Positions 17,901 to 35,943 of a DNA stretch of 36,162 nt are shown piece by piece. Positions within the stretch are counted from its first letter, which is position 1, and the number at the start of each line of letters is the position of its first letter. The notes beneath the pieces are model-generated. The model worked only from the letters and a program-made list of their open reading frames with translations. It was not told where the DNA came from and did not search any database. The stretch comes from Beijerinckiaceae bacterium (GTDB taxonomy: Bacteria > Pseudomonadota > Alphaproteobacteria > Rhizobiales > Beijerinckiaceae): positions 1-36,162 of the forward strand of contig CANJJI010000031.1 of NCBI GenBank assembly GCA_947474545.1, in the 5' to 3' direction. The position numbers were made by a program, and so were the translations under genes.

Positions 17901-17906
17901 TTTTTG

Positions 17907-17937
17907 ATTGTATTATACTTCATAACAATTATACAAT
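17907..17937. promoter_or_regulatory. MarR operator/divergent promoter, marR1-livH
   Basis: Outer arms ATTGTAT and ATACAAT bracket a 31-bp AT-rich element. Inside lies CATAACAATTAT (17921-17932), identical to 12 bases of the site at 24483-24494. Over 21 aligned positions the two sites agree at 16. TATACT (plus strand) and TATAAT (minus strand) -10-like hexamers overlap it, so binding would affect marR1 and livH together. Confidence 0.65.
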
Positions 17938-18004
17938 ATCACAAATAGGAAGAGGGACGCACCGGCGAATATTCAATCGCCGAGGCTAAAGGGGGCGAAC
18001 GGGA

Positions 18005-19045: not shown

Positions 19046-19047
19046 CC

Positions 19048-20865: not shown

Positions 20866-21581
20866 GCGATCTCCTGTTGTCCATTCGTGACCTCTATGTC
20901 TCCTATGGCAAGGTTGAAGCGGTGCATGGCGTGTCCATCGAAGTGCCGCGCGGTGAAATTGTCACTGTCATTGGCGCAAACGGCGCAGGCAAGACTACTT
21001 TGCTCAACGCCGCTATGGGCATTCTGCCCGCGCGCGGTTCGATCGAATTCGAAGGGCGCAATATCCTGCGCCAGCCGGTCGAGGATCGCGTTGGCGGCGG
21101 AATGACTCTCGTGCCCGAACGGCGTGAACTTTTCGCAACCATGCCTGTGGAAGACAATCTCCTTCTGGGCGGTTTTTTGATCTCGTCTTCGGAACGTGCG
21201 CGGCAGCTCGAGGAAGTATTTGTCCGCTTTCCCAGATTGAAAGAAAGGCGGCGTCAGCTTGCCGGAACCTTGTCCGGCGGCGAGCGTCAGATGTTGGCCA
21301 TGGGCCGCGCTCTGATGGCCAAGCCACGCCTGCTGATGCTGGATGAACCCAGCCTTGGCCTCGCACCCTTGATTGTTGCGGATATTTTTTCAATCATTCG
21401 CGATTTGCGCAGCGCTGGTGTTTCCATCTTGCTGGTCGAACAGAACGCGCGTGCCGCCTTGCGCGTCGCCGACAGCGCTTATGTGATGGAACTCGGTGAA
21501 ATCACTCTGCAGGGCAAGGCCGCAGAACTTGCCGCGGACCCCAAGATCGTTGAAACCTATCTTGGCCTGGCGACACATTGA
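20862..21581 (+). CDS. Branched-chain amino acid-type ABC ATPase, LivF-like
   Basis: A 239-residue ATPase. Walker A GANGAGKTT is near residue 33, the signature LSGGERQMLAMGRALM near 136-152, and Walker B LLMLDEPSLGLAPL follows. The LivF hallmark LVPERRELFATMPVEDNLLLG is present. The start overlaps the previous stop as ATGA, so translation is coupled. It energises the transporter together with the fused LivG domain. The matching binding protein is encoded convergently just beyond the terminator. Confidence 0.94.
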   Translation: MSDLLLSIRDLYVSYGKVEAVHGVSIEVPRGEIVTVIGANGAGKTTLLNAAMGILPARGSIEFEGRNILRQPVEDRVGGGMTLVPERRELFATMPVEDNLLLGGFLISSSERARQLEEVFVRFPRLKERRRQLAGTLSGGERQMLAMGRALMAKPRLLMLDEPSLGLAPLIVADIFSIIRDLRSAGVSILLVEQNARAALRVADSAYVMELGEITLQGKAAELAADPKIVETYLGLATH

Positions 21582-21596
21582 AATTTACATAAAATT

Positions 21597-21625
21597 GGCG
21601 CTGCCCTCTCATCGAGGACAGCGCC
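21597..21625. terminator. Bidirectional hairpin between converging livF and binding-protein genes
   Basis: GGCGCTG and CAGCGCC plus inner CCTC/GAGG pair around a five-base loop, with one mismatch, in a 29-nt hairpin. It lies 15 nt after livF and 31 nt after the converging gene's stop. A T-rich run follows on the minus strand, so termination is best supported for the leftward operon; on the plus strand no T-run follows. Confidence 0.7.
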
Positions 21626-21656
21626 AGTAACTGGCTGCGGGAGGTGCAGCTTTCTC

Positions 21657-22799
21657 CTACGGCAGCAGCGCAAACTTGCCGTCTTTGACCACAAGCAAAA
21701 CGCGCCCACGTTCGTCGAGACCGTAGTGGTCCTTTTCCGTGAAATTATAAACCCCTTGCGTCGCAACAATATCCTTCTCGGATGTAATCGCCTTCAAAAG
21801 CGCCGCCTTGAATTCCGGGGTGCCGGGTTTGGCGCCTGTCTTCAATGCAGCTGGGATAATGCGTTTGAGGACTGCGAAAGCGTCATAGCCATGTCCACCG
21901 AATTGCGTACGCGAATCCGGACCGTGCTTGGCTTCGTACATCTTGATATAGGCTTCGCCTTCCGCCTTGGTCGCTGCCCCTGCGGGAAGCAGATCGGCAA
22001 CAGCTGCCGGGCCTGAAGACAGGATTGTCCCTTCTATGGACTTGCCGCCGATTTTCATCAGCACGTTGGAAACCGCACCGTGCGTTTGATAAATAGCGCC
22101 GTTATAGCCTCGTTCGCGCAACGCGATGTTCGGCAGCGCCGCAGCAGTTCCCGAAGCAGCAACCAGCACAACATCCGGTTTTGCTGCGGCGATCTTCAGT
22201 GTCTGCCCCGTCACTGACGTATCTGCACGGCCATAACGTTCTTCTGCCACCAGCTTGATACCGAGCGGTTCGCCAATCTTTTTGTATTGCGCCACCCAGA
22301 GATCACCCCATGAATCGGAAAATCCGATCATGCCAAGGGTCTTCACATTGTTCTTGACCATGTGCTTGAAAATAACGTCTGCCATGATGGCCACATCCTG
22401 CGGCAGCACGAATGTATATTTCATGCGCTCTTCAGGGATAGCCGTCGGCGCAGTGGACAGATGCAGCGTCTGCGTTTCGAAGGCGACATTGCCGACAGCG
22501 CTGGCTGGCGGTGTAGTCGATGAACCGATGATCACATCCACCTTGTCGTCGGTTATCAGGCGGCGCGCGTTGGTCGTTGCACGGCCTGCGTCGCCGCCGT
22601 CATCCAGAACTATGACGTCGAGCTTCACGCCATTGATTTCCCGCGGCAGCAATTCGATTACATTGGCAATCGGCACGCCCAATGCAGCAGCTGGTCCTGT
22701 TGTTGATAGCGTGACACCAACCTTAACTTGCGCGCTTGCGGGCATAGCGAGCGCCACAGCGAATGCTGCCAGCGATATTCCCTTCCACACTGCTTTCAT
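21657..22799 (-). CDS. ABC periplasmic binding protein, branched-chain/aromatic acid type
   Basis: A 380-residue type I periplasmic binding protein (Peripla_BP_6). The signal peptide ends near residue 23 (ASA before QVKVGVTLSTTGPAAALG). LDVIVLDDGGDAGRATTNAR and VIIGSSTTPPASAV mark the first lobe. The ATG at 22799 has a GAGAGGGAG ribosome site; a second ATG two codons upstream is less suited. It is the probable ligand-binding partner for the converging LivH/LivM-LivG/LivF set. It is last in an operon with a crotonase and a dehydrogenase, which suggests a carboxylic acid that is degraded as a CoA ester. Confidence 0.92.
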   Translation of the reverse strand: MKAVWKGISLAAFAVALAMPASAQVKVGVTLSTTGPAAALGVPIANVIELLPREINGVKLDVIVLDDGGDAGRATTNARRLITDDKVDVIIGSSTTPPASAVGNVAFETQTLHLSTAPTAIPEERMKYTFVLPQDVAIMADVIFKHMVKNNVKTLGMIGFSDSWGDLWVAQYKKIGEPLGIKLVAEERYGRADTSVTGQTLKIAAAKPDVVLVAASGTAAALPNIALRERGYNGAIYQTHGAVSNVLMKIGGKSIEGTILSSGPAAVADLLPAGAATKAEGEAYIKMYEAKHGPDSRTQFGGHGYDAFAVLKRIIPAALKTGAKPGTPEFKAALLKAITSEKDIVATQGVYNFTEKDHYGLDERGRVLLVVKDGKFALLP

Positions 22800-22828
22800 G
22801 ACCAAACTCCCTCTCCAGTACTTCAGGA

Positions 22829-23590
22829 TCAGCGCGGCGCCATGCGCAGCGCACCATCAAGACGAACAACTTCGCCATTGAGATAATTGTTCTCGACCAT
22901 ATGACAGGCGAGCGAGGCATATTCTTCTGCGTGGCCAAGACGGCGCGGATTGGGAATTGCCGAGGCAAGTGAATCCTGTGCTTCTTGCGGCAGCGAGCCC
23001 AGCAGCGGCGTTTTGAAAAGCCCCGGTGCAATCGCAAGAACGCGCACGCCAAACTGCGCCAGTTCGCGCGCCAGTGGAATTGTCAGCGCGACGATGCCGC
23101 CTTTGGAAGCTGCATAAGCGGATTGACCGATCTGTCCTTCATACGCAGCCACCGAAGCCGTTGAAATCATCACGCCGCGCTGACTGTCAGCCAGCGGCTC
23201 AAGCTTTTGCATCGCAGAAGCGGCCAGCCGCAGCATATTGAACGAGCCATTGAGATTGACGTTGATAACGCGCGTAAATTCTTCCAGCGCCATCGGCCCG
23301 TCCCGTCCGACCATACGCTTGGCGATTGCGATGCCCGCACAATTCACAAGAATACGCGGCGCGCCCAAAGCTTTCTCAAGCTCTGCGAAAAAGCCCTCGG
23401 CGCTTGCAGCGTCTGAAACATCGACTTGCCAGGCGCGTCCACCGATATCATTGGCGACACCAATAGCCCGTGCAATATCGCGGTCCGCTATGGCGACTTT
23501 CGCGCCGCGCGCTGCAAAGGCACGCGCTGTCGCCTCGCCAAGTCCCGAAGCGCCACCAGTTACAACAGCCACTTGTCCCTTCATATCCAT
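22829..23590 (-). CDS. SDR dehydrogenase, HSD10-like 3-hydroxyacyl-CoA dehydrogenase
   Basis: A 253-residue short-chain dehydrogenase. The cofactor motif is TGGASGLG at 11-18, and D36-region ADRD favours NAD. The catalytic set is S146, Y159 and K163 in TASVAAYEGQIGQSAYAASK, a stretch typical of the type II 3-hydroxyacyl-CoA dehydrogenases (HSD17B10-like). Such enzymes oxidise 3-hydroxyacyl- or 2-methyl-3-hydroxyacyl-CoA to the ketone. It lies between a crotonase gene and the binding protein gene on one leftward transcript, so hydration followed by oxidation of an enoyl-CoA is a reasonable reading. Confidence 0.88.
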   Translation of the reverse strand: MDMKGQVAVVTGGASGLGEATARAFAARGAKVAIADRDIARAIGVANDIGGRAWQVDVSDAASAEGFFAELEKALGAPRILVNCAGIAIAKRMVGRDGPMALEEFTRVINVNLNGSFNMLRLAASAMQKLEPLADSQRGVMISTASVAAYEGQIGQSAYAASKGGIVALTIPLARELAQFGVRVLAIAPGLFKTPLLGSLPQEAQDSLASAIPNPRRLGHAEEYASLACHMVENNYLNGEVVRLDGALRMAPR

Positions 23591-23646
23591 GTAAGCGCCC
23601 TTTCATGCATTCCTGGAAACCGGCAACCGCATATGCGGCGATCAAA

Positions 23647-24441
23647 CTAGCCCTGCGGCACAATCTTGCCTGCACGCTTTTCGAGAAAATCGGACAACCG
23701 CTTCTGCGCTTCCGGATTTGTTGAAGCAGCGCTCGCCATCAGCGATTCCATCACATAGCCAGTCGCCGGATCAGCTTCAGCAATGCGCGGCAGAGCGTGG
23801 ATCAGCGCAAAATTTGTCATTGCAGCATTGCCAGCAACCTTGTTCGCCAGCTCCATCGCTTTGCCGAAGGCTTCGCCAGCACCTACGAGATATTGCGAAA
23901 TACCCAACGACAGGCCTTCTGCTGCGCTATAGGTGCGGCCCGTCATCATCATGTCCATCATGCGGGAAACGCCGATAAGGCGTGGCAAACGCACAGAGCC
24001 GCCACCGCCAACAAAAATGCCGCGCTGCCCCTCCGGCAAGGCATAATAGGCCGTCGGTTCAGCCACACGCAGGTGGCACGCAGCCGCCAGTTCGAGACCG
24101 CCGCCAATCACCGCTCCCTTGAGCGCCGCGATCACCGGCACGCGCCCGAACTGAATTTTTTCGAATGTCGCATGCCAGCTGCGCGAATGCATGATGCTTT
24201 CGGGCAGATCACGGGTTGTCAGTTCAGAAAGATCAAGGCCCGCAGAAAAATGTTCGCTTTCGCTGTTGATGACAACGGCTGCAACATCCGGCTCAAGCAT
24301 CGAGAAAATGCGATCAAGCTCACGCACCAGCGGATCGTTCATCGCATTACGCTTTTCAGGACGATTTAAGGTGAGGACAAGAACGCGGCCCTCACGGCGC
24401 ACGAGCACCGGCGTTGCGGATGTGGACGAAGCGGCGGTCAT
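23647..24441 (-). CDS. Enoyl-CoA hydratase/isomerase family protein
   Basis: A 264-residue crotonase. The CoA-site motif SEHFSAGLDLSEL is near 63-74. GAVIGGGLELA and ALPEGQRG give the two expected catalytic glutamates, E117 and E137. GGGGGAGAGCC precedes the ATG at 24441, fixing it over an ATG at 24459. It is first in the operon whose promoter carries the MarR-type operator, with a TTGACA -35 (24495-24500). It would hydrate an alpha,beta-unsaturated acyl-CoA for the HSD10-like enzyme next to it. Confidence 0.9.
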   Translation of the reverse strand: MTAASSTSATPVLVRREGRVLVLTLNRPEKRNAMNDPLVRELDRIFSMLEPDVAAVVINSESEHFSAGLDLSELTTRDLPESIMHSRSWHATFEKIQFGRVPVIAALKGAVIGGGLELAAACHLRVAEPTAYYALPEGQRGIFVGGGGSVRLPRLIGVSRMMDMMMTGRTYSAAEGLSLGISQYLVGAGEAFGKAMELANKVAGNAAMTNFALIHALPRIAEADPATGYVMESLMASAASTNPEAQKRLSDFLEKRAGKIVPQG

Positions 24442-24470
24442 GGCTCTCCCCCGGGACAATTCTTGACCTA

Positions 24471-24491
24471 ATTGTTATAGTCCATAACAAT
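24471..24491. promoter_or_regulatory. MarR-type operator in the crotonase operon promoter
   Basis: Arms ATTGTTAT and ATAACAAT are separated by AGTCC in a near-perfect 21-bp dyad. On the minus strand a perfect TTGACA -35 lies at 24495-24500 and a TATAAC-like -10 lies within the dyad, so binding would block the promoter. The sequence CATAACAATTAT recurs at the marR1-livH gap (17921-17932). The 84-nt gap holds nothing else. Confidence 0.7.
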
Positions 24492-24525
24492 TATTGTCAA
24501 TAATGTTTGGAGCCACCGCGTGGCC

Positions 24526-26613
24526 TTATACCGGTGTCACGAGCGCATCCACAGCGATTACCCCCTGCCCTTTGGGCAAGACAATCAGCGGATTAATCTC
24601 GATGGACCCGAACGCGCCCCCCTGCGAGGCTGCGAAAACCGAGAGCCGGCTCAAAGCTTCCGCCAGCGCCTCGATATCCGCCTCGGGCCGGCCGCGCGCT
24701 CCGGCAAGCAGCGGGAAGCTCTTGACCTCGCGGATCATTTGCCGCGCCGTCTCTATGCCGAAAGGCGCAACGCGCAGTGCAGTGTCGTGAAATATTTCGG
24801 CGAAAATGCCACCCAGGCCAAACATGATGGCGGGCCCGAACACCGCATCCCGCTTCATCCCGACAATAGTTTCCACACCTCCTGAAATCATCGGCGACAC
24901 CAGCACGCCCTCCAGCCGGGCCTGCGGCATTGCCTGCGCTGCTTTTTCCATGATCATATCAAAGGCGCGGGCAGCAGCCTCTTCGCCTTCAATCCCGAGC
25001 ATCACCCCGCCGATATCTGATTTATGAGCGATATCCGGCGAGGCAATTTTCAGGACAACCCGACCGCCGAACTTGCGCGCTGCAGCGCCAGCCTCCGTAT
25101 GGTTTTTGGCCAGAACGTCGCCGACAGTTTTGACGCCGATCTTCTCCACCAATTGCTTGGCCGCCCGCTCTCCGCCAGTAAATATTTCATTTGCAACGGC
25201 TATCGCTGGCACTTCAGGCTTTTTCTCAAGTTCCGGAACACCAGTGCTCGCCTGAATGGAACGCACCGATGCCATGGCAGCAATAGCGCGCGTCAACTCG
25301 TCGCAAACGAAAATATCGAGGCTCTGGAATTTCAGCTGCCATTCGTCCGAAAGGCACGCGACCAGCGCCAGATAGCGCTCCGGCCGCCGCTTGCGCGCCG
25401 CGGCCAGCCAGTCATGCAACGCGCCCATATTGTGTTCGAGCAGCCCGAAATGGCCGATGATAAAGATGGCGCTATCAAAATCGCCCTCCACCGCCAGCGC
25501 ATCGACGACGCGATTATATTGCACAAGACTGCCGTTATCGACCGGGTTGCGGACGGTCGCGAGCGGATTACCTTCCCGCACATGCTTTTGCAGATGTTCC
25601 TCGAGCGTTGGCAGAACAAAGCCATGCTTGGTCGCTTCGTCAGTGGCCAGAATGCCAAGCCCGCCCGACACGGTTCCCACAGCCATACGTGGCCCGGGAA
25701 TGGCGCGCTTGGTGCTGCAGGCGACGATGACGTCAATCATTTCCTCGACGCTGTCAGCGCAATAAACTCCATCCTGCTTGAACACAGCTTCGTAGACATC
25801 ATAACCGCCCACCATCGAGGCCGTATGAGAAGCCACCGCCGCAGCGCCCTCGTCCGTTCGCCCGGCTTTCAGGGCGATGACCGTCTTTCCATTCGCGCGC
25901 GCCAGCTGGAACGCCTTGCGCAGGGCCGCAGGCCGTGTCGTGCCTTCAAGGTAGACCGCGATAACTTTGGTGATCTCATCGCGCGCCAGATGTGATATAC
26001 AATCGGATATGTCGATGTCCGCCTGATTGCCGGTCGCGATCCATTTGGCGATGCCTACCCCGCGATCCCTCAACATGCCCATAAGATGCGAACCGACAAA
26101 ACCGCTCTGGCTGGCGATACTGACCGGGCCAAGCTCTGGCCAATCCTTGCCCGTATGTTCGCAAATGCCAGTAAAAGTCGCGCTGAACCGGCTTTCGAGA
26201 CTGAGCCCGCCCATACTATTGGGACCAACGAGACGCATACCCGCAGCACTCGCTTTGGCCGCAATCCGCAATTGGGCCTCGCGGCCTTTTTCACTGGCTT
26301 CGGCGAAACCGGAGCTCAGGATCACCGCAAGCGGTATCTTCTTTGCTGCGCAGGCTTCCACCGCCTCCTCGACACCCCTGGCAGGCACGACGATGATGGC
26401 GCAGTCGGTATCATCAGGCAGCGCTGCGATCTCGCCATAGGCTTTCAGACCCTGCACTTCCGCCGAGCCCGGATTCACTGGATAAATTTTTCCCTGAAAT
26501 CCCAGCCGCAAGGTCTGGTCCACCGGCCGCCCGCCAAGTTTGTTGGGATCGCCCGACGCGCCGATAATGGCAATCGCCTTAGGATAGAAGAAGCGGTTGA
26601 GAATATCGTCCAT
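24526..26613 (-). CDS. NDP-forming acyl-CoA synthetase (acetate-CoA ligase-like, fused alpha-beta)
   Basis: A 695-residue enzyme that would make acyl-CoA from acid, CoA and ATP with release of ADP, through a phospho-His intermediate. Order: a CoA-binding Rossmann domain (about 1-130, IAIIGASGDPNKLGGRPV), a succinyl-CoA-ligase-like domain with the catalytic H263 in ASHTASMVGG, then an ATP-grasp domain (about 470-695). This energy-saving class differs from the two AMP-forming ligases elsewhere in the window. AGGA precedes the ATG at 26613. It diverges from the cupin gene and follows the crotonase operon without sharing its promoter. The substrate acid is unknown. Confidence 0.9.
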   Translation of the reverse strand: MDDILNRFFYPKAIAIIGASGDPNKLGGRPVDQTLRLGFQGKIYPVNPGSAEVQGLKAYGEIAALPDDTDCAIIVVPARGVEEAVEACAAKKIPLAVILSSGFAEASEKGREAQLRIAAKASAAGMRLVGPNSMGGLSLESRFSATFTGICEHTGKDWPELGPVSIASQSGFVGSHLMGMLRDRGVGIAKWIATGNQADIDISDCISHLARDEITKVIAVYLEGTTRPAALRKAFQLARANGKTVIALKAGRTDEGAAAVASHTASMVGGYDVYEAVFKQDGVYCADSVEEMIDVIVACSTKRAIPGPRMAVGTVSGGLGILATDEATKHGFVLPTLEEHLQKHVREGNPLATVRNPVDNGSLVQYNRVVDALAVEGDFDSAIFIIGHFGLLEHNMGALHDWLAAARKRRPERYLALVACLSDEWQLKFQSLDIFVCDELTRAIAAMASVRSIQASTGVPELEKKPEVPAIAVANEIFTGGERAAKQLVEKIGVKTVGDVLAKNHTEAGAAARKFGGRVVLKIASPDIAHKSDIGGVMLGIEGEEAAARAFDMIMEKAAQAMPQARLEGVLVSPMISGGVETIVGMKRDAVFGPAIMFGLGGIFAEIFHDTALRVAPFGIETARQMIREVKSFPLLAGARGRPEADIEALAEALSRLSVFAASQGGAFGSIEINPLIVLPKGQGVIAVDALVTPV

Positions 26614-26771: not shown

Positions 26772-27650
26772 ATGAAAATTGTGCAGGGCGACCAGGTCGA
26801 ATGGAAACGCGGTCTCGAATATCGCGGCGGCACATTCCATTTCCGCAATCTCATGGAAGGCCGCGCCGGGACAATCGGCAATTTTCAATTGTCCATGGGC
26901 CGCAACGACAAGGATTTCATGTCGCCACGTCACCGGCATAATTTTGAGCAATTCCGTTGCCAGCTTGAAGGCGAACTCGAATTCGGCCGCGACGGCACGA
27001 TGAAACCAGGCATGTGCGGCTATTTTCCCGAAGGCGCCCACTACGGCCCGCAGACCTCCCAGATGGACGCGACAACTATCGTTTTGCAGTTCGGCGGCGC
27101 CAGTGGCAGCGGCTACCTGTCCCGCGCCGAAGTATTTCGCGGCATGCAGGAACTTTCAACCACCGGCACGTTCAAGGACGGGATCTACCGCCGAAATGAG
27201 GGCGAGCCGGGCAAGAAAAACCGCGATGGCTACCAGGCCATCTGGGAACATGTGAACGGCCAGGAGATGGAATATCCCAAACCCCGTTATCCCGCTCCGA
27301 TCATGATGGACGAATCCCATTTCGCCTGGACAGCGGCAAACGATGAACCAGGCGTCAGTGAAAAACTGCTCGGACAATTCACTGAACGGCGCAATGAAGC
27401 GGCCTTCGTGAAGGTCGCCAAAGGCGCGACACATATTCTCCATCCGCGTAGCGTTTACTTTTGCAAATCCGGCAAAGGCAAAATCGGCAGCGACGACATC
27501 CGTTTCTGCTCGACGATCCATCTGGAAGACGGCGAAAAAGCCACTGTAACAGCCAGCGAAGATATGGTTTTCATTCGCATGGGCCTGCCAGACCTGTCCG
27601 GACTGGAAATGAACCGTCCTCAATCGGCCACAGCAATGGCGGCGGAATAA
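26772..27650 (+). CDS. Cupin-domain protein (bicupin-like)
   Basis: A 292-residue protein. The first cupin barrel shows metal-ligand-type residues H54, H56 and E59 in SPRHRHNFEQ, with H90 in PEGAHYGP. A second barrel-like half starts near residue 200 (FTERRNEAAFVKVAKGATHILHP) and lacks an obvious full ligand set. An AGGAGG ribosome site precedes the ATG. Metal-dependent dioxygenases, isomerases and decarboxylases share this fold, but I do not recognise the subfamily. It is divergent from the NDP-forming synthetase and may act on the same pathway. No signal peptide. Confidence 0.8.
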   Translation: MKIVQGDQVEWKRGLEYRGGTFHFRNLMEGRAGTIGNFQLSMGRNDKDFMSPRHRHNFEQFRCQLEGELEFGRDGTMKPGMCGYFPEGAHYGPQTSQMDATTIVLQFGGASGSGYLSRAEVFRGMQELSTTGTFKDGIYRRNEGEPGKKNRDGYQAIWEHVNGQEMEYPKPRYPAPIMMDESHFAWTAANDEPGVSEKLLGQFTERRNEAAFVKVAKGATHILHPRSVYFCKSGKGKIGSDDIRFCSTIHLEDGEKATVTASEDMVFIRMGLPDLSGLEMNRPQSATAMAAE

Positions 27651-27838: not shown

Positions 27839-28360
27839 ATGTCGGTAAATCAGAAGACCCCAAACGGGTCCGTAAAAACATCGCGAATTCGGCCTGGGAC
27901 GGGGGTGCGGAAAAGCAATGCCGCCCTGCGTTATCTGGCGCGCGATGAAACCGTCGGCTTTCTCCTTTGGGATGCCCGCCGCGCCATATCCCGCGATTTT
28001 GAGAAGCGTATATCGCCCCATGGCGTCAGTCTCGGTACATTCTGGATCCTGCGCATCCTCTGGGATGAAGATGGTGTCACGCAATCCCAGCTGATCCAGC
28101 GCGTGCGCATGAAGGGACCAACAATCGTCGGCACTGTAGCGCAGCTGGAACGTGAAGGTCTTGTCACCCGCACAGCCGACGCCAGCGACAGCCGCAAGAA
28201 ACTGATCAGCCTGACCCCGAAGGGGCACGCTTTACGCAACATCATTCTCCCCATTACAGAAGACGTCAACAAGCGCGCACTCAAGGGCTTCGCTGCAGCA
28301 GAGCGCAATCAGCTGAAAGACATGTTGCGGCGCCTGCGCCTCAATATGAGCGAAGGCTGA
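27839..28360 (+). CDS. MarR-family transcriptional regulator 2
   Basis: A 173-residue winged-helix regulator. The dimer helix (FLLWDARRAISRDFEKRI) precedes the wHTH VSLGTFWILRILWDEDGVTQ, SQLIQRVRMKGPTIVGTV and LEREGLVTRTADASDSRKKL. The start at 27839 has only a distant GAGGGA (about 14 nt), which lies in the hairpin CCCTC-CCGGT-GAGGG, so translation may be weak or controlled. It converges on an SDR gene and may regulate the catabolic module to its right. Its effector is unknown. Confidence 0.85.
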   Translation: MSVNQKTPNGSVKTSRIRPGTGVRKSNAALRYLARDETVGFLLWDARRAISRDFEKRISPHGVSLGTFWILRILWDEDGVTQSQLIQRVRMKGPTIVGTVAQLEREGLVTRTADASDSRKKLISLTPKGHALRNIILPITEDVNKRALKGFAAAERNQLKDMLRRLRLNMSEG

Positions 28361-28369: not shown

Positions 28370-29149
28370 TCAAGGCGCCATAACCGCACCACCATTCATC
28401 GCAACGCCCTGCCCAGTCATCCAGGCCGCATCGGCGCTGGCGAGAAACCACGCCAGCCCCGCCATATCTTCAGGATAGCCGATACGCCCGAGCGGCACAT
28501 GAACGGCCGCATCCGCAATCAGCTTTTCACGCGGAGTGGCCACCATCGGCATGGCTGTCAGTGATTGACCGGGAATGAGCGCATTGACACGAATGCCATG
28601 CGGCGCCCATTCGAGAGCCAGGGATTTCGTCAGCGAGGAAATAGCGGATTTCGTTGCCGCATAGTTTGAACCTTTTGCAGCCCCCTCAAGCGCCCGGCCC
28701 GACGAAATGTTTATGATGCAGCCCCGCTTTTTTTCAATCATCGCAGGACCCAGCGCCTTCACGATCAAAAATGGAGCAGTGACGTTGACCCGGAAAGTCA
28801 GTTCCCATTGCTCCTGCGTCAACTCCAGAACAGTTCCGCGCGGAAACACGCTGGCGTTGTTGATCAGACAAAAGGGCGCGCCATATTTTTCGAGCGTCTC
28901 TTTCGCCGCGCGCTGGATATCGGCAGCACTGGCCAGATCCACCTTGAAAAAAGTGGCGTCGCCGCCAGTGGCACGAACCTGTTTGGCGGTTTCCTCGCCG
29001 GAAGCCTGATCCACATCCCAGACCGCGATTTTGCCGCCTTTACCGCCAAATCGCTTTGCGAACGCCCGGCCGAAGCCGCCGCCGCCGCCTGTAATCACAA
29101 CAACATCTCCGGATTTGAAGCCGTCGCGCAGGATTCCATCTTCGCTCAT
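28370..29149 (-). CDS. SDR oxidoreductase
   Basis: A 259-residue short-chain dehydrogenase. The cofactor motif is TGGGGGFGR, with WDVD after the second strand suggesting NAD. INNAS, the catalytic S150, Y163 and K167 in SSGRALEGAAKGSNYAATK, and a C-terminal GVAMNGGAVM follow. The start at 29149 has GGGGAGGGAAT before it; the 68 extra codons upstream are an artefact. It is divergent from the alpha/beta hydrolase and may oxidise a hydroxyl in that pathway. Confidence 0.88.
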   Translation of the reverse strand: MSEDGILRDGFKSGDVVVITGGGGGFGRAFAKRFGGKGGKIAVWDVDQASGEETAKQVRATGGDATFFKVDLASAADIQRAAKETLEKYGAPFCLINNASVFPRGTVLELTQEQWELTFRVNVTAPFLIVKALGPAMIEKKRGCIINISSGRALEGAAKGSNYAATKSAISSLTKSLALEWAPHGIRVNALIPGQSLTAMPMVATPREKLIADAAVHVPLGRIGYPEDMAGLAWFLASADAAWMTGQGVAMNGGAVMAP

Positions 29150-29181
29150 ATTCCCTCCCCAGGGCTTGTGCCCGAACAAGA

Positions 29182-29195
29182 TAGGTTGGTACCTA
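29182..29195. promoter_or_regulatory. Short inverted repeat in the SDR/hydrolase gap
   Basis: TAGGT and ACCTA arms flank TGGT, and GGTACC inside is itself a palindrome. The element lies about 35 nt upstream of the SDR ATG. It is short and could be chance. Confidence 0.3.
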
Positions 29196-29281
29196 CTTAT
29201 TTCCGCAGCCTGAATATTTCGTTTGACAGCAATGTTAGGCCGGGTGCTAATTAACCGCAAGCAGGATCGTGAATAGACAAT

Positions 29282-29300
29282 TTTCCGGTTCAACCGGAAA
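29282..29300. promoter_or_regulatory. Perfect 19-bp palindrome upstream of the hydrolase operon
   Basis: TTTCCGGTT, one C, then AACCGGAAA make a perfect 9+1+9 palindrome, 24 nt before the hydrolase ATG and about 130 nt from the SDR ATG. Length and position suit a dimeric repressor (MarR or TetR type). No second copy was seen near the other promoters. The regulator may be the nearby MarR2, but that is a guess. Confidence 0.6.
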
Positions 29301-29324
29301 CAAATTCTGCACTGGGAGGATGGA

Positions 29325-30119
29325 ATGACTTCGGCAGCCAGCGATGGCCTCACGACAATCGATATTCATGGAACCGAAGTCCAGACATTCGTCGGCGGCG
29401 CCGGTCCCAATATAGTCTATCTGCATTCGGCTCTGTGGCTCGGTGATGACACGGCCTTTGTGCACGAACTGGCAAAACATGGCCACGTGATTGCCCCGCT
29501 ACATCCAGGCATTGGCACTGGAAAGGATAAAAACAACACCGGCTCCGTTGACGATCTTGCCTATCTCTATCTCGATTTGATCGAACAGCTGAAACTGAAA
29601 GACGTAACGCTTGTAGGCGCGTCCTTCGGCGGCTGGATCGCTGCGGAAATGGCGGTACGCAATTGCAACGCGTTGTCCCGGCTCGTGCTGATTGATGCGC
29701 TCGGCGTCAAGCTTGGTGAGCGCGAACATCGCGACATTCAGGATTTTTACGGCACGCCTGATTCAGAGCTTACGCGAATGTGTTTCGCCGATCCGGCCAG
29801 GGGCGGCGCAGAGTTGCGCTCGCTCGGCGATGATGATCTGCGCCGCCGCCTCCGCGCTCGCGAAGCGCTCGCCCGCTATGGCTGGCAGCCCTATATGCAT
29901 AATCCCCGCCTGAAACTGCGGCTGCATCGGGTGAATGTACCGACGCTAGTCATGTGGGGCGACAAGGATGGCGTCGCAAGCCCGGATTACGGGAAGGCCT
30001 ACGCAAACCTCATTCCCGGCTCACAATTCGAACTTGTCAAAAACGCTGGCCATCTCTGCCATATCGAACATCCCGCCACCGTCGCGTCGCGGATTCAATC
30101 CTTCGCACATAACCGATAG
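29325..30119 (+). CDS. Alpha/beta hydrolase
   Basis: A 264-residue alpha/beta hydrolase. The nucleophile elbow GASFGG has S100, the acid region WGDKDG lies at about 211-216, and NAGHLCHIE gives H243. GGGAGGATGGA sits before the ATG. Weakly similar enzymes cleave C-C bonds in ring-fission products, esters or lactones. It opens a rightward operon with a luciferase-like monooxygenase 12 nt away, so a lactone or ester made by that oxygenase is a reasonable substrate, unproven. Confidence 0.87.
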   Translation: MTSAASDGLTTIDIHGTEVQTFVGGAGPNIVYLHSALWLGDDTAFVHELAKHGHVIAPLHPGIGTGKDKNNTGSVDDLAYLYLDLIEQLKLKDVTLVGASFGGWIAAEMAVRNCNALSRLVLIDALGVKLGEREHRDIQDFYGTPDSELTRMCFADPARGGAELRSLGDDDLRRRLRAREALARYGWQPYMHNPRLKLRLHRVNVPTLVMWGDKDGVASPDYGKAYANLIPGSQFELVKNAGHLCHIEHPATVASRIQSFAHNR

Positions 30120-30131
30120 CGAGGCTTTCAA

Positions 30132-31328
30132 ATGCGCATCTATCATTTCTCTGAAGAGCCCTATCCCGACGTCTGGACGCCCGACCGGCCCACACTTCGT
30201 GTAACCCTGCCAAATGAATTGTGCGATCCAAAGCGCGCCAATGAACTTTATCATCGTTATGTCGACGAATGGATGCTGGCGGACCAGCTAGGTTTCGACA
30301 TCATGTTGAACGAGCATCATTCCACAGCGACTTGCCTCACCGCTTCAGCCAATTTGATGCTCGCAATTCTTGCGCGCGTAACAAAGAATGCGCGCCTGCT
30401 TGTGCTTGGTGTGCCCGTCTGCAACAGGCAGGATCCCGTGCGCATCGCCGAGGAAATGTCGATGATCGATGTGATTTCAGGCGGACGGCTCGAATTCGGC
30501 ATGATCAAGGGCGTGCCTTACGAAATCGCGCCCGCGAATTCACAGCCCACCCGCATGATGGACCGCTTCTGGGAGGCCCATGACATCATCGTCAAGGCGA
30601 TGACGACCCACAACGGCGCATTCAATTTCGAAGGCGAGTTCTTCCATCATCGCACCGTCAACATCTGGCCGCGCCCCTGGCAACAACCCCATCCACCAAT
30701 CTGGTCTTCCACATCAACACCAGCTAACGCGAAGGAAATCGGCCTGCGCGGTTATGTCGTCGGTTCATTCATGGGTGGAATCGACGAAACACGGAAGCTT
30801 CACAAAGCCTATGCCGAAGGCTATCGCGAAGGCGGCTTTGGTAATGACGTGCCCGTCGACCGTTTCGGCTATCTCGCCATGTGCGCAACGGCAAACACCG
30901 AAGCCGAAGCCCGCCGCCGCGCGGATATGATTGCCGATTATCTGCGCACCAACGCTCAAGTCGCTGACCCCTTCAACAAGCCGCCGGGGTATTTCAGCGT
31001 CGATGCCGCCTTCCGTTCCATGCGCTCGCCCAATCCGCGCGCTTTCCGTACACTCGTGACACCAAAAGGCCGGCCAGTCGAACTCTCGACGGCGACCCTA
31101 GACGATTTCATTGAATGCGGCATCGCTTTTGCCGGCACGCCTGACCAGGTGTTCGAACAAATCTGCTCCTTCGTCGACGGCATCGGCGGGCTCGGCAACC
31201 TCTTGCTGATGGGACAGGGCGGTCATCTCAATCACGAAGAAACCGTCGACAGCATCACGTTGTTCGGCAAACAGGTCCTGCCGCGCCTGAAAGCGCGTTA
31301 TGCGCCTGAAATGAAATTCGCGGCCTGA
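30132..31328 (+). CDS. LLM-class flavin-dependent monooxygenase
   Basis: A 398-residue luciferase-like protein. The barrel starts MRIYHFSEEPYPDVW, followed by ADQLGFDIMLNEHHSTATC, ARLLVLGVPVCNRQDPVRIAEE and the diagnostic DVISGGRLEFGMIKG. The C-terminal part has CGIAFAGTPDQVFEQI. It would use reduced flavin from a separate reductase to oxygenate a substrate, possibly Baeyer-Villiger type. No flavin reductase gene is seen in the window. GAGG precedes the ATG. It is distinct from the partial family member at the left edge. Confidence 0.92.
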   Translation: MRIYHFSEEPYPDVWTPDRPTLRVTLPNELCDPKRANELYHRYVDEWMLADQLGFDIMLNEHHSTATCLTASANLMLAILARVTKNARLLVLGVPVCNRQDPVRIAEEMSMIDVISGGRLEFGMIKGVPYEIAPANSQPTRMMDRFWEAHDIIVKAMTTHNGAFNFEGEFFHHRTVNIWPRPWQQPHPPIWSSTSTPANAKEIGLRGYVVGSFMGGIDETRKLHKAYAEGYREGGFGNDVPVDRFGYLAMCATANTEAEARRRADMIADYLRTNAQVADPFNKPPGYFSVDAAFRSMRSPNPRAFRTLVTPKGRPVELSTATLDDFIECGIAFAGTPDQVFEQICSFVDGIGGLGNLLLMGQGGHLNHEETVDSITLFGKQVLPRLKARYAPEMKFAA

Positions 31329-31340
31329 GGGAGACAAACA

Positions 31341-32177
31341 GTGGCTGACAATTGGATCGTCATCAAGGAATGGCCAGAACTCATCTTGCAGAAACTTGAG
31401 GACTCGGGCGTTGCGCGCATCATTCTCAATCGTCCGGACAAGCGCAATTGCTGGAACCGCGAGATGTGCGAAGCTTTTTTACAAAGCCTCGAAATCATAC
31501 GCGCCGACAAGTCGCTTAAATGCTGCATCACAAAGGGTGCAGGACCGGTCTTTTCCTCCGGCCTTGATCTCAAATTTTTGCGCGAAGTCTCCAATGGCCC
31601 GCTGCTCGATTGGGATCGCCCGACCCCGACAATTCAGATCGCCAATGCCTTGCGTGGTTTCCCGCGCATTATGATTGCGCAAATCCATGGCTATTGCCTT
31701 GGCGGCGCGCTGGGCATCATGAATTGTCATGATCTTGTCTATGCGGCAGAAGACGTGCAAATCGGTATGCCCGAAATTCTGCGCGGCTCATTCGGGCAGC
31801 TGGTGACCTCAACCTTGCTGCATGGCGGCGTACCCCAGAAGAAACTGTCGCACATCGCTCTTGTCGGCAAAAATTTTTCGGGCAAGGAAGCAGACGAACT
31901 CGGAGTTGTCTCTAAAGCCGTTCCCGCCGCCGAACTTGAAACATTCACTGTCGGCATTGCGCGCGAGATTGCCTCACGCCATCTCGCCCCGCTGGAACAT
32001 CACAAGATCACCGTGCAACTCGGCCGCGATCTCGGCATCAATCAGGCGGTTCAGGTCGACCAGTTGGTAGGCTCGCGCCTGCGCCACGCGATGGACCCGC
32101 TCGGCGATGTCGAGAATTATCTCGGCTCGCAAAAGGGGGGCCCGAACCTCGGTTACAAGCGCCCGGACGTAGGGTGA
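31341..32177 (+). CDS. Crotonase-family protein, HCHL-like features
   Basis: A 278-residue crotonase starting at GTG with GGGAGACA upstream. The motif SSGLDLKFLREVSNGP resembles the hydroxycinnamoyl-CoA hydratase-lyase segment. HGYCLGGALGIMNCHD has Gly where hydratases carry the first catalytic Glu, while the second, E145 in GMPEILRG, is kept, a pattern also found in HCHL. The HCHL active-site tyrosine in that segment is absent here. Its true reaction (hydration, retro-aldol or C-C hydrolysis) is open. It lies 12 nt after the monooxygenase gene. Confidence 0.85.
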   Translation: MADNWIVIKEWPELILQKLEDSGVARIILNRPDKRNCWNREMCEAFLQSLEIIRADKSLKCCITKGAGPVFSSGLDLKFLREVSNGPLLDWDRPTPTIQIANALRGFPRIMIAQIHGYCLGGALGIMNCHDLVYAAEDVQIGMPEILRGSFGQLVTSTLLHGGVPQKKLSHIALVGKNFSGKEADELGVVSKAVPAAELETFTVGIAREIASRHLAPLEHHKITVQLGRDLGINQAVQVDQLVGSRLRHAMDPLGDVENYLGSQKGGPNLGYKRPDVG

Positions 32178-32179
32178 AA

Positions 32180-32210
32180 GCGGTCAGTGTCTAGTGGATG
32201 GTCTGACCGC
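32180..32210. terminator. Inverted repeat at converging gene ends
   Basis: GCGGTCAG and CTGACCGC are perfect 8-bp arms with a 15-nt loop, spanning the end of the crotonase gene and the stop and last codons of the converging SDR. A likely bidirectional transcription stop, though no T-tract is present. Confidence 0.45.
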
Positions 32211-32955
32211 CATCCACGACAACAGTAGCACCGGTCATGAACGAAGCCGCGTCGGACACCAGAAATGCCGCGACATCGCCGATCTCGTCACATTCCGCAG
32301 GACGCCGCAACATGATGCGTTCCTTCACCGCATCGAGATTGACCAGGCCCTTGTCCATATAACCCTTGTAACGCGGCGATAACGTGGAGCCCGGACAGAC
32401 AGAATTCACGCGCAATCCCTGCGAGCCGTAATCAATCGCAAGCTGCCGCGTGAGGTTGACCACTGCACCCTTGGTCGCGCAATAAACCGGCATCTTGGGA
32501 TTCCCGATCACTCCGAATGTCGAAGCTATATTGACGATGGATGGCCCCTTGGCTTTCAGCAACAGTGGGATGAACTCGCGGCACATATAATAAACGCTGT
32601 TCAGATTTGTTCCGATCAACTCGTTCCACTTGTCCGTCGGCAATTCATGTAGCAATGCGCTGTGATTATTGCCGGCATTATTGACGATCGCTTTTGCGAC
32701 TCCCCATCTCTCAGTAACGAACGAAGCAAGGGCCTGCACGTCAGCTTCCCTCGAAACGTCGGCGACAAAATATTCACATTTGAAGCCACGTCCGCAGATA
32801 TCGTCTGCTGCCTCTTTCAACGTTGCTTCAGTCCGCCCGCATATAACCGCGACGGCTCCCATTTCGGCCACAGCCATAGCCGTCGACTTGCCAATGCCCG
32901 CCCCGCCGCCGGTGACGACAACTACGTCGCCGTTCATCTTGAGTTTTCCGAGCAT
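32191..32955 (-). CDS. SDR oxidoreductase downstream of TRAP genes
   Basis: A 254-residue short-chain dehydrogenase. The cofactor motif is VTGGGAGIG, with CGRT after the second strand favouring NADP. VNNAGNN, the catalytic S145, Y158 and K162 in ASTFGVIGNPKMPVYCATK and PGSTLSPR follow. GAGGAGAATGAGGC precedes the ATG. It lies 60 nt after the TRAP permease gene on the same strand, which suggests that the imported compound or its product is its substrate. Confidence 0.88.
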   Translation of the reverse strand: MLGKLKMNGDVVVVTGGGAGIGKSTAMAVAEMGAVAVICGRTEATLKEAADDICGRGFKCEYFVADVSREADVQALASFVTERWGVAKAIVNNAGNNHSALLHELPTDKWNELIGTNLNSVYYMCREFIPLLLKAKGPSIVNIASTFGVIGNPKMPVYCATKGAVVNLTRQLAIDYGSQGLRVNSVCPGSTLSPRYKGYMDKGLVNLDAVKERIMLRRPAECDEIGDVAAFLVSDAASFMTGATVVVDGGQTIH

Positions 32956-33015
32956 GCCTCATTCTCCTCGCCCTGCGGGTCTTGCCATAAGCTGGTCAAA
33001 AGAAATTAGAAGGCT

Positions 33016-34941
33016 TCAGGTTGGCGGCGTTCTCGCCGCACGCGCACCATACCAAGCCTTGAGTTCAGGCAAATATTGCGATGCCAGAAACGAGCCCGCC
33101 AACACAAGCCCGATCATCTCATACTGACGTATCGGCACAATCAGGCATGCCCCTGCAGCAAACCCCCAAATACGATCGAGCAGATTAAGTGGACGCCTGC
33201 CATAGCCTTCAAGAGCTGCCGCTACAACAATAACTCCAATTGTCGCCAGCGCCGTATCATAAATGATGTGGTTCCAGGGTCCCAACATCAAGATTGACGG
33301 GCGATATATAAACATGAACGGCACGACAAACGCCACGAAAGCCACACGCGAGGCATGCCAGGCCGTCTTCATGACAGGGCTACCTGCAATGCCCGCCGCC
33401 GCTACGGCGGCCAGTGCATCGGGCGGCGTAATCACCGCAAGTGTTGAATAATACATCACGAAGAAATGCGTCGAGACTTTCGCCGTATAGGGATCGACAC
33501 CTTGCGATGTAAGAAAGGCAATCAGCATCGGGATCGTCACCGCAATCTGCGCAAGATAGCTCACAGTCGGTGGCACGCCGAGGCCGATCACCAATGAGAT
33601 CACCATGGTGATGACCAGTCCCATGAACAAAGTGCCCGCGATAGCATTGCCCTGTTGCGCGAGCTTCACGCCAACCGTCGTCTGATCGAACACGCCAACG
33701 ATGATGCCCGCGCAAGCGGTGGCCACAGCAACAAGAACAGCGCCTTTTGCGCCGTTTTCCAGCGCTTCCATAATGCCGCGCCAATCAAGCCTCGTACTCT
33801 TGCGAAACCACGAGACCACGATCACCGCGAGAATCGAATAGCCGACGGAAAACTGCGGCGAGTAATCCATACCCAGCAGCACGACCAGGAGAACGATGGG
33901 CAACAACAGATGCCACATTTCCTTGAATTTCCCGCGCCAATCCGGCAGGTCCGCCTTGTCGAGCGGTTTGGCGTCATAGCGCAATGCCGCAAAATGCACT
34001 GTGCAATAGATGCCAAGATAATAAAGGATCGCCGGTATAGCCGCATAAAGCGCGATCAACCCGTAGGGCACGCCCGAATATTCCGACATGATAAAGGCAA
34101 CAGTACCCATAACTGGCGGCATCAACGCGCCACCCGTCGAGGCCGCTGCTTCGATTGCTCCCGACATGAATGGCGGATAACCCGCCCGTTTCATCAAAGG
34201 AATAGTAAGCGACCCTGTAGAAAGCACGTTCGCTGTGGCGCTCCCCGAAATCGTACCCGTCAACGCGCTCGCAACGACGGCAACTTTCGCCGATCCGCCA
34301 CGCCGGTGGCCCAGGATACCCGTCGTGAAATCCATCATGAAACTGCCGAGGCCACAACGTTCAAGGAATGCGCCGAAAATAATGAAAAGGATGATGAAGT
34401 TGGCGGAGGCCGCCAGCGGCGCACCGAAGACGCCGGAGAAGGTCAGATATTGGAACTCCAGAGTTTCGGCCACCGTGTAACCAGCGTGCGAAAAAACCCC
34501 TGGCAGATTGGGTATGAAAGGGAATATCAAAAAGACAACACAAACAGCGGGAAGCGCGATGCCTGTAACCCGGCAACTTAGTTCCAGCAGCCCGACAACG
34601 AAAGCAATGCCAAGAACGATCTCAATTTGCGTCATATCGCCGACATATTGAATCCGCCCGTCTGTGAGATATTGATAATTTGCAATCAGATAAATCATCG
34701 GCACGATTGCACAGATAGCGATCGCAAGACGGTAAAGTCTCTGCCCCCACAGACCAAACCGATCCGCAAAATAAAACGGCCGGGAATTGATCAGCAACAG
34801 AAGCACGAAAGACAGCAGGAGATGGATGGTTCTCTGCAGAATGGCGTCCATCAACCCGAATATGGCTGTGTGCATATGGAACAGCGCCATGCCCACTGCG
34901 ATGACGCGCACGAGAAGCGTTAAATTTCCCGAAGAGATCAT
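33016..34941 (-). CDS. TRAP transporter fused permease (DctQM), TAXI type
   Basis: A 641-residue inner-membrane protein. Small-subunit-like spans near the N-terminus (about 1-120) precede the large DctM-type domain. SGAIEAAASTGGALMPPVMG and GLGVPPTVSYLAQIAVTIPM are typical of TRAP large subunits fused to the small subunit. It transports a carboxylate or related solute driven by an ion gradient, together with the binding protein encoded 54 nt upstream. The ribosome site is weak. The substrate is unknown. Confidence 0.93.
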   Translation of the reverse strand: MISSGNLTLLVRVIAVGMALFHMHTAIFGLMDAILQRTIHLLLSFVLLLLINSRPFYFADRFGLWGQRLYRLAIAICAIVPMIYLIANYQYLTDGRIQYVGDMTQIEIVLGIAFVVGLLELSCRVTGIALPAVCVVFLIFPFIPNLPGVFSHAGYTVAETLEFQYLTFSGVFGAPLAASANFIILFIIFGAFLERCGLGSFMMDFTTGILGHRRGGSAKVAVVASALTGTISGSATANVLSTGSLTIPLMKRAGYPPFMSGAIEAAASTGGALMPPVMGTVAFIMSEYSGVPYGLIALYAAIPAILYYLGIYCTVHFAALRYDAKPLDKADLPDWRGKFKEMWHLLLPIVLLVVLLGMDYSPQFSVGYSILAVIVVSWFRKSTRLDWRGIMEALENGAKGAVLVAVATACAGIIVGVFDQTTVGVKLAQQGNAIAGTLFMGLVITMVISLVIGLGVPPTVSYLAQIAVTIPMLIAFLTSQGVDPYTAKVSTHFFVMYYSTLAVITPPDALAAVAAAGIAGSPVMKTAWHASRVAFVAFVVPFMFIYRPSILMLGPWNHIIYDTALATIGVIVVAAALEGYGRRPLNLLDRIWGFAAGACLIVPIRQYEMIGLVLAGSFLASQYLPELKAWYGARAARTPPT

Positions 34942-34995
34942 GATGTCTGTTCACGCCAGAGTAAGGGGAACCTGATTGGCCTCAGTGCTTCCAAT

Positions 34996-35943
34996 TCACT
35001 TGATCCAGCCACGTTCGCGATAATATCTGGCCGCGCCCGGATGGAACGGCGAGCCTGCATCAATAGCCATTTCCTTGACATCGAAGGGTTCGAGCGACGG
35101 CTCCGAAGGCCGGATCTGGTCGAAATTCTCCGCGATAAATTTCACCATCTGATAGGCCAGCGGCTCGCTGAGCTTTGCCGATGCAGCGATGACATTGGGA
35201 TAGGCGAGAGAATCTACTGAGTTTGACAAGTTTTTGTAAGCAGAACGGTCTTTCGGCCATTTGGTAATGTAGAAACTCGGATCTTCCTTGACAAAGGCAT
35301 CCATCACCTTGCGATCAAGCTCGATCAGCCTCACGTTTCGCGTTTGCGCCAGGTTCATGAAGGCGCCAAAACGTTCGCTTGGTGCGTACATAAGGCCCTG
35401 GTGATGTCCGTCCTTGAAGGATTCCACGGCTTCAGTAATACGCAAAGTACCCAGCTCAACTTTCCCGGATATACCCTCCATCTTGGCGATCGTCTCGCTG
35501 ATTTCACGGATGGAAAAGCCTTTGGGCGCAACATTGAGCTTCTTCCCGGCGAAATCCTTAAACGTCTTGATGGAGGACTCCTCGGGGACGAAAATGACAA
35601 CGTGGAACGCGTGTAATGTGATGAGATTCACAGCATTATTCGTCGGCTTTTTGAATGGCTCCTTGCCAAGTCTGCCTTCCCGGAGGCTCTGCGACATAGT
35701 GATGCCGATATCCGACTTGCCATCATCGACCCGGATGACATTGCCGATGCTGCCGCCTGGCTGCAGAGTTACACGGCCAATCTCCGGCATCTTTTCGAGC
35801 AATGTCCCAAGCGCCACGGTGATGGGATATTGTGATCCACCCTGCGTGCCCGCGCCAACGTTGATATCCGCCTTGCCCTGAGCAAAAGCGGCGCTGCCCG
35901 CAAACAGCGATGCTACGAATACTAGCGATCCCAAATGTTTCAT
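34996..35943 (-). CDS. TAXI-family TRAP solute-binding protein
   Basis: A 315-residue secreted protein. The signal peptide ends near residue 21 (AAFA before QGKADINVGAG), and the diagnostic TAXI segment GTQGGSQYPITVALGTLLEK follows. GAGGGTCTG precedes the ATG. It is the receptor for the TRAP permease next to it. An insertion-sequence end begins about 75 bp upstream of this start, so its promoter may be altered. Confidence 0.92.
   Translation of the reverse strand: MKHLGSLVFVASLFAGSAAFAQGKADINVGAGTQGGSQYPITVALGTLLEKMPEIGRVTLQPGGSIGNVIRVDDGKSDIGITMSQSLREGRLGKEPFKKPTNNAVNLITLHAFHVVIFVPEESSIKTFKDFAGKKLNVAPKGFSIREISETIAKMEGISGKVELGTLRITEAVESFKDGHHQGLMYAPSERFGAFMNLAQTRNVRLIELDRKVMDAFVKEDPSFYITKWPKDRSAYKNLSNSVDSLAYPNVIAASAKLSEPLAYQMVKFIAENFDQIRPSEPSLEPFDVKEMAIDAGSPFHPGAARYYRERGWIK

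Follow-up and report, generated by a model that had tools for sequence, protein, structure and literature searches.

A candidate MarR-controlled catabolic module around a luciferase-like monooxygenase and its alpha/beta hydrolase partner in a Beijerinckiaceae bacterium

What do the genes at 28370-35943 of a 36,162-nucleotide contig from a Beijerinckiaceae bacterium do together? This contig (C31; CANJJI010000031.1 in assembly GCA_947474545.1) is, as a whole, the window of this study, and belongs to a genome of 4.8 Mb in 286 contigs that is 96% complete; the host bacterium's group comes mainly from lake samples. A sequence-only reading had taken the seven genes for a candidate undescribed catabolic module with its own transporter, in which, as one possible order, an alcohol is oxidised, the ketone is oxygenated by a flavin enzyme, the ester or lactone is hydrolysed and a crotonase cleaves a C-C bond. 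We find that the block is very probably a functional catabolic module and that, judged from gene neighbourhoods across genomes, its core appears to be a pair of genes for an alpha/beta hydrolase (ABH) and a luciferase-like monooxygenase (LLM), which is met again in distant bacteria and is present in multiple copies in the host. An open reading frame (ORF) check and profile searches confirmed all seven genes as real, with the families first assigned to them; the corrections are the start of SDR1 and the addition of a MarR-family gene, omitted earlier, that belongs to the block.

27839-28360, + strand: MarR-family regulator, 173 aa (Pfam MarR, E 6.6e-11); the gene caller prefers an alternative start at 27905
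28370-29149, - strand: SDR1, a classical short-chain dehydrogenase (SDR; Pfam adh_short_C2, E 5.9e-52)
29325-30119, + strand: ABH, alpha/beta hydrolase (Pfam Abhydrolase_6, E 1.5e-18)
30132-31328, + strand: LLM, luciferase-like monooxygenase (PF00296, E 4.2e-36, 125.3 bits against a cut-off of 27.9)
31341-32177, + strand: ECH, a one-glutamate crotonase (from alignment to p-hydroxycinnamoyl-CoA hydratase/lyase, HCHL, its best PDB match)
32191-32955, - strand: SDR2, a classical SDR (Pfam adh_short_C2, E 1.4e-55)
33016-34941, - strand: fused TRAP permease (TIGR02123, 563.8 bits, cut-off 320.65)
34996-35943, - strand: TAXI solute receptor (TIGR02122, 163.9 bits, cut-off 84.35)

Profile searches of six-frame ORFs recovered 87 unique LLM relatives, 81 of them with at least 900 bp of upstream sequence. 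An ABH-family gene lies upstream on the same strand in 65 of these 81 and only downstream in a further 7, and the two genes overlap by 4 bp in 11 pairs. The host genome itself holds 74 PF00296 domains over the cut-off, one of them cut by a contig end, and 20 homologues of the block's ABH; 19 of the 20 have an LLM within 400 bp on their own strand, where about one would be expected on either strand, and the twentieth is a 75-residue match. Seventeen of the 74 host LLMs have an ABH-family gene within 400 bp. The two proteins also diverge together: their distance matrices correlate at r 0.86 over 67 pairs and at r 0.75 over 13 paralogous pairs of the host, with 0 of 2000 permutations as high in either case, and the test within the host's own genome is independent of the species tree.

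The pair extends well beyond the host. Seven further genomes (Rokubacteria, Chloroflexi and other Alphaproteobacteria, none in the genus set described below) carry it in 24 of 30 loci, of which at least 8 repeat places in the first set. In a Chloroflexi order, where a match was obtained in only 18 of 44 genomes, the pair occupies 18 of 24 new loci, with ABH upstream in 9 and downstream in 9. On plasmids, 125 records have an LLM match; among the matches listed, 24 cover at least 80% of the LLM, and ABH stands directly beside it in 18 of these 24 (tables compared by eye), including records from Rhodococcus opacus PD630 and Sinorhizobium fredii NGR234. This near-obligate pairing, together with the co-divergence, supports flavin oxygenation followed by hydrolysis as a unit, and we consider it likely that one and the same substrate is handled first by LLM and then by ABH. 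The corresponding part of the sequence-only reading therefore stands as far as the unit is concerned, with published precedents discussed below, and the enzymatic activities themselves remain predictions.

Does the rest of the block belong with this pair? Named genomes yielded 23 loci when searched, with flanks of at most 10 kb per side, and we refer to loci whose LLM is at least 73% identical as clade A. Three other metagenome-assembled genomes (MAGs) are syntenic with the block. In L034, from an 'ErkenSummer' bin, cupin, MarR, SDR1, ABH, LLM, ECH, SDR2, TRAP and TAXI genes follow in the same order and on the same strands at 70-96% identity; L032 keeps order and strand from MarR to TAXI at 86-98% identity, and L033 does so from MarR onwards until its contig stops at SDR2. 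More distant loci retain the genes in other arrangements: ECH, SDR2, SDR1, ABH, LLM in L040 and L041; MarR, SDR1, ABH, LLM and then SDR2 in L039; and MarR, ABH, LLM, ECH in L049. SDR1 orthologues of 61-95% identity occur in L032-L034, L039-L041 and L043, and SDR2 orthologues of 69-93% in L032-L035 and L039-L041. In some clade-A loci, for example L052, ABH and LLM alone of the block are kept. At L055/L052, where the LLM is 80% identical, the pair lies among a TauD-type dioxygenase, a GMC oxidoreductase, a FAD monooxygenase and TctC-like receptors, with SDR1, SDR2 and ECH missing; the genome concerned (G139) is the sole clade-A genome without an ECH orthologue.

One further gene may belong to the block.

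26772-27650, + strand: cupin-like protein, below Pfam cut-offs, of uncertain block membership; the gene adjoins the block elsewhere only in L034 (77% identity)

The crotonase gene follows the LLM even where the two are apart. Among 51 genomes from the genus, 18 have a clade-A LLM (here at least 72% identity) and 24 an ECH orthologue (at least 69%, two matches being partial); the orthologue is present in 17 of those 18, against 7 of the 33 genomes that lack such an LLM (Fisher 5e-7, kinship and incompleteness uncorrected). The two genes share a contig in eight genomes; G119 and G212 carry them on separate contigs, well away from the contig ends. An ABH opens the ECH contig of G227, and the LLM partner of that ABH is probably at the edge of another contig.

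The transporter of the module is exchangeable. A TAXI receptor and a fused TRAP permease stand next to each other in the window, both over their cut-offs, and the receptor matches TAXI-type receptors in the PDB (best E 1.1e-19), so that the assignment to TAXI-TRAP holds. Homologues of this system accompany the module only in the window, L032 and L034; that the block has its own transporter, as first read, is only partly right. In several distant clade-A loci a TctC-type receptor (PF03401) takes the place after LLM: copies 67-100% identical to that of L041 do so in L035, L037, L039, L041 and L222, and weaker homologues lie near LLM in L043/L227 and L052 and, in L034, beyond TAXI. None was found in L036, L040, L042, L049, L205, L224 or L225, a group that includes several short loci. 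In L038, L040 and L056/L041 a receptor from one cluster of homologues stands 3-4 genes past LLM, and the representative of that cluster has a match to PF16868 (TAXI-type). At L034:17068-20033, just past the TAXI end of the block, stand three TctC-type receptor genes in tandem, with 30-32% identity to the copy in L041. TctC and TRAP systems mostly carry organic acids, and this bias leads us to a carboxylated substrate, probably a carboxylated ketone. The transporter does not allow the substrate to be named, TAXI-TRAP transporters being called 'poorly understood' (PMC11574862).

How might the module be controlled? The longest ORF of SDR1 (to 29353) runs over the ABH start; the gene caller instead starts SDR1 at 29149, a choice backed by orthologue lengths of 259-267 aa (n=7), which leaves a 175-bp divergent region (29150-29324) ahead of ABH. 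ABH, LLM and ECH are separated by 12 bp each, SDR2 and TRAP by 60 bp and TRAP and TAXI by 54 bp; these short gaps suggest two operons, ABH-LLM-ECH and TAXI-TRAP-SDR2, with SDR1 separate. The divergent region contains three features of interest.

29182-29199, no strand assigned: predicted MarR operator TAGGTTGGTACCTACTTA, a GGTACC palindrome upstream of ABH
29223-29251, + strand: possible ABH-LLM-ECH promoter (TTGACA, 17 nt, GCTAAT), read by eye and weak
29282-29300, no strand assigned: TTTCCGGTTcAACCGGAAA, an inverted repeat of 19 nt, perfect in the window and altered in L032, L033 and L034

A MarR orthologue is linked in L032, L033, L034, L039/L057 and L049, where linked means at least 45% identical and within four genes. 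All six MarR-linked loci have GGTACC in the 300 bp ahead of ABH; it is seen in none of ten unlinked clade-A loci and in 2 of 61 other ABH upstream regions. Among the ten, the ABH of L036_2 in fact goes with a second LLM, L042 offers only 186 bp of upstream sequence, and L043 is counted as unlinked with a MarR protein that is 40% identical and farther away. The element was chosen after viewing the window, L032, L033, L034 and L057, and L049, with AGTAGGTACCTACTTA, confirms it independently. When three near-identical loci are grouped, the count is 4 of 4 against 2 of 71 (Fisher 1.2e-5, kinship uncorrected). With up to 2 mismatches allowed, the operator pattern has no other match in the host genome; a reversed control pattern has 3. 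We infer that the MarR protein would bind this site, and the module is probably MarR-controlled. The regulator's nearest curated models, HpaR (56.8 bits, cut-off 121.2) and Saro_0803, are not reached at their cut-offs. The 19-nt palindrome was rejected as an operator because the three syntenic MAGs do not keep it whole. A consensus scan did not report the promoter at 29223-29251, sigma-70 and terminator scans of the block gave counts no higher than shuffled sequence, and no common operator was seen ahead of the TAXI or MarR genes, by eye or in the host-genome pattern search.

These observations bear on one alternative, that the block is no single pathway and that generic catabolic genes for different compounds happen to stand side by side. 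The interchangeable SDRs and transporters fit such a view, as do genomes such as G119 and G212, where ECH and LLM are far apart. The synteny of L032-L034, the reshuffled retention in L039-L041, the co-occurrence of ECH in 17 of 18 genomes even when unlinked, and an element ahead of ABH that tracks the MarR gene all argue the other way, and we consider the alternative very unlikely. The coherence of the module is upheld by the synteny in relatives and by ECH co-occurrence, and the common element ahead of the ABH operon suggests local regulation.

What chemistry would the core perform? The LLM has an AlphaFold model of the LLM fold (pLDDT 83.1, pTM 0.86), and its NEHH motif is invariant in 23 aligned relatives. 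It falls outside the named subfamilies: 19 NCBIfam models matched and none was over its cut-off, the best (Atu2307/SP_0267) at 75.2 against 462.25 bits, and no PDB chain matched its sequence better than E 3e-14. Its fold neighbours span VIA Z 36.0 to 24.4 across the 50 entries listed. One of them, 3,6-diketocamphane monooxygenase (4uwm/5aec), superposes at Z 32.3 with an rmsd of 2.8 over 334 residues; in sequence it is 20% identical and matches over a C-terminal stretch only (E 4.4e-6). Dependence on F420 was rejected: no F420 ligase (PF01996) was found in the host genome, a test of the 96% complete genome and not of the enzyme, with 3 of 14 control genomes positive, which makes FMN the likely cofactor. 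The ABH, modelled at pLDDT 90.6, has an intact S100-D215-H243 triad by alignment, and 59 of the 67 main-set partners encoded upstream likewise have S-D-H; PcaD 3-oxoadipate enol-lactonase is its nearest curated model, though at 86.3 bits against a cut-off of 255.85. Oxygenation of the Baeyer-Villiger type plus ester or lactone hydrolysis is, we judge, modestly probable.

The crotonase is harder to place. Its best PDB match is HCHL (2vsu/2vss; E 8e-26), and alignment keeps Glu143 (E145), replaces Ser123 with G125 and Met70 with L75, and sets Tyr75 against F79 beside a gap. The catalytic glutamates of two-glutamate hydratases are Glu 144 and Glu 164 in rat numbering, the first corresponding to HCHL Ser123. 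ECH has Gly (G125) where the first of this pair would stand and E145 at the second position, and both residues are kept in all ten aligned ECH sequences, the window's included. With 124.6 bits against the HCHL cut-off of 276 and Gly at the Ser123 position, neither an HCHL nor a canonical hydratase identity could be retained. No CoA ligase is encoded in the block. The C-C cleavage by the crotonase that had been read from the sequence is therefore not established, and we regard it as doubtful.

In the sequence of events that we propose, the TAXI-TRAP system would import an acidic (carboxylated) alcohol or ketone, and SDR1 would oxidise the alcohol to the ketone, presumably with NAD, as we take an Asp after beta2 to suggest. 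The LLM, receiving FMNH2 from a reductase encoded elsewhere, would insert oxygen beside the carbonyl (type II Baeyer-Villiger), and ABH would hydrolyse the resulting ester or lactone to a hydroxy acid. SDR2, whose Arg after beta2 we take to indicate NADP, may handle an upstream or downstream carbonyl, and ECH may isomerise or cleave a CoA ester later, after activation by a ligase outside the block. The order first read from the sequence is thus kept as a proposal, with less weight on C-C cleavage by the crotonase.

With little more than even confidence, we lean towards this explanation as a whole, a MarR-controlled module round a coupled LLM-ABH pair; gene families, synteny, pairing, co-divergence, co-occurrence and the common element upstream of ABH are what the data show, whereas MarR binding, each reaction, their order and the class of substrate are predicted. 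Several observations weigh against it. No ABH-family neighbour accompanies the LLM in 9 of the 81 relatives, the pair is missing from 6 of the 30 further-genome loci and 6 of the 24 in the Chloroflexi order, and 57 of the 74 host LLMs have no ABH-family gene within 400 bp, so that ABH-paired LLMs are one class among those of the host. The linkage of TAXI-TRAP and ECH to the pair is inconstant. No flavin reductase gene was found in the block; three PF01613 genes lie elsewhere in the host genome, none on C31, from which we take FMNH2 to be supplied in trans. The two nearest folds to the LLM model among the entries listed are RslO1 (Z 36.0) and an uncharacterised Agrobacterium monooxygenase (Z 35.0), and 3,6-diketocamphane monooxygenase ties with luciferase at Z 32.3, so that fold alone cannot identify a Baeyer-Villiger function. 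Finally, the nucleophile is not constant: Gly (five partners), Ala (two) or Cys (one) replaces Ser among the 67 upstream partners of the main set, Gly (five) or Ala (one) does so among 18 upstream partners in the further genomes, and in the Chloroflexi order all 8 aligned upstream partners have Gly. Classical esterase chemistry therefore cannot hold for the whole family.

The substitutions come with LLM pairing intact. Partners with a Gly elbow (GLGFGG, GLGLGG or GCGLGG), Asp and His being kept, stand upstream in L277-L283, L288, L249, L251, L253, L259 and L263 and downstream in L287 and L290. Of the nine downstream partners of the Chloroflexi order, five have Ser, two Cys and two Gly; downstream partners L243 and L244 (the same as in L053 and L054) read E-D-N, and the one Cys-bearing partner of the main set also has Asn for Asp. 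This variety, with Gly, Ala, Cys or Glu in place of Ser in part of a family that stays paired, would suit an ABH acting as a C-C or enol hydrolase, or through a His-Asp dyad as general base, on an LLM product that is a beta-diketone or has an opened ring, and the meta-cleavage hydrolases DxnB2, CumD, BphD and HsaD are among its top folds at Z 25-27. Lipases and esterases fit the ABH fold equally well, however, and the window's ABH, like those 59 main-set partners, carries Ser-Asp-His; we consider this reading unlikely.

A different chemistry is raised by RutA, which shares the LLM fold. RutA and RutD are an LLM-fold oxygenase and its hydrolase partner, and by analogy the LLM would open an amide or N-heterocycle by oxidative C-N (or C-S) cleavage and ABH would clear the product as RutD does. 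RutA is nevertheless among the farther of the 50 listed folds (Z 24.6, against 32.3 for diketocamphane monooxygenase), and profile scans found no amidase or sulfur-handling family among the seven block genes and MarR, which makes this quite improbable. For ester or lactone hydrolysis after Baeyer-Villiger oxygenation, the reading we prefer, there are published counterparts.

In Sphingobium sp. AntQ-1 the LLM sphantq_4473 and the contiguous hydrolase sphantq_4474 are induced on 9,10-anthraquinone, and a lactone and its hydrolysis product were detected (PMC9836352). That pair, likened to ours by description, is a contiguous LLM and Abhydrolase_6 gene; unlike here, no SDR, crotonase and TAXI block is described in the passages available. 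An LLM of the pdc cluster of Caenibius tardaugens is a Baeyer-Villiger enzyme by assay, converting progesterone to testosterone acetate, and resembles the block's LLM in family and catabolic setting; the hydrolase of its product is unknown there (PMC12239570). RslO1 'most probably' acts on the anthracene moiety in rishirilide biosynthesis (PMC7221717). HCHL, the crotonase's counterpart, has Glu143 in common with ECH and differs at the positions of Ser123, Met70 and Tyr75. SAR202 Chloroflexi have an expansion of flavin-dependent monooxygenases of this kind (FMNO), for which an order of SDR, type II Baeyer-Villiger monooxygenase (BVMO) and lactone opening has been proposed (PMC5395668). The host resembles SAR202 in its many LLM paralogues per genome (PMC5395668, PMC6946804), and its 74 domains in 4.8 Mb reach the tens per genome of a SAR202-type expansion; it differs in being an alphaproteobacterium and in having a dedicated hydrolase gene beside the LLM, and the words 'hydrolase' and 'operon' are absent from the main texts of both papers. 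In first-look counts, the host with its 81 LLM candidates heads the rows listed for 199 family genomes (scoring of the others stopped at 10); a protein search gave 59-73 such candidates for each of six congeners.

Baeyer-Villiger-type chemistry and LLM expansion are thus known kinds. That no described pathway has this gene set remains fair for the whole set; the LLM-hydrolase couple itself has been described, the AntQ-1 pair (PMC9836352) being the only one that literature searches of partial coverage turned up. Within the same partial coverage, we found nothing in print on a near-obligate ABH-LLM couple across phyla, on the couple in an alphaproteobacterium with 74 LLMs, on the block's gene set with its predicted operator or on Ser-less ABH partners.

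The remainder of the window holds other catabolic genes. An aerobic benzoyl-CoA (box) cluster occupies 7230-15166: BoxA, BoxB, BoxC and a member of the benzoate-CoA ligase family all pass their cut-offs, and 14246-15166 encodes an HTH/shikimate-kinase regulator resembling BoxR. This is a known pathway, and it was rejected as part of the module, with no BoxA, BoxB or BoxC homologue in the relatives' flanks of at most 10 kb per side. Positions 17316-26613 encode a second MarR-type regulator, a branched-chain-type ABC importer, an SDR, a crotonase and an acyl-CoA synthetase of the NDP-forming type; these genes may make up another catabolic block, and CoA esters could come from it. At the contig's start, a second LLM (1-396, - strand; PF00296, 115.9 bits) is cut by the contig end and adjoins three tandem solute-binding-type proteins (433-3586).

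A role for LLM/FMNO enzymes of uncultured bacteria in recalcitrant dissolved organic matter has been a hypothesis since at least 2017 (PMC5395668). We tentatively suggest, as an idea to which we give limited credence, that a broad, unnamed LLM class with a dedicated alpha/beta-fold partner may be the working unit where uncultured Alphaproteobacteria, Rokubacteria and Chloroflexi have expanded their LLMs; partners that are Ser-less throughout whole lineages, with Gly instead and Asp and His retained, would perform non-nucleophilic, His/Asp-based chemistry on the product of the oxygenase in place of ordinary ester hydrolysis. With a partner gene in the same operon, such LLMs acquire a two-step reaction that can be tested, and the predicted operator of a local MarR regulator offers a route to the inducer and hence to the substrate. 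An alphaproteobacterium with 74 LLMs is thereby tied to a pattern known from the deep ocean.

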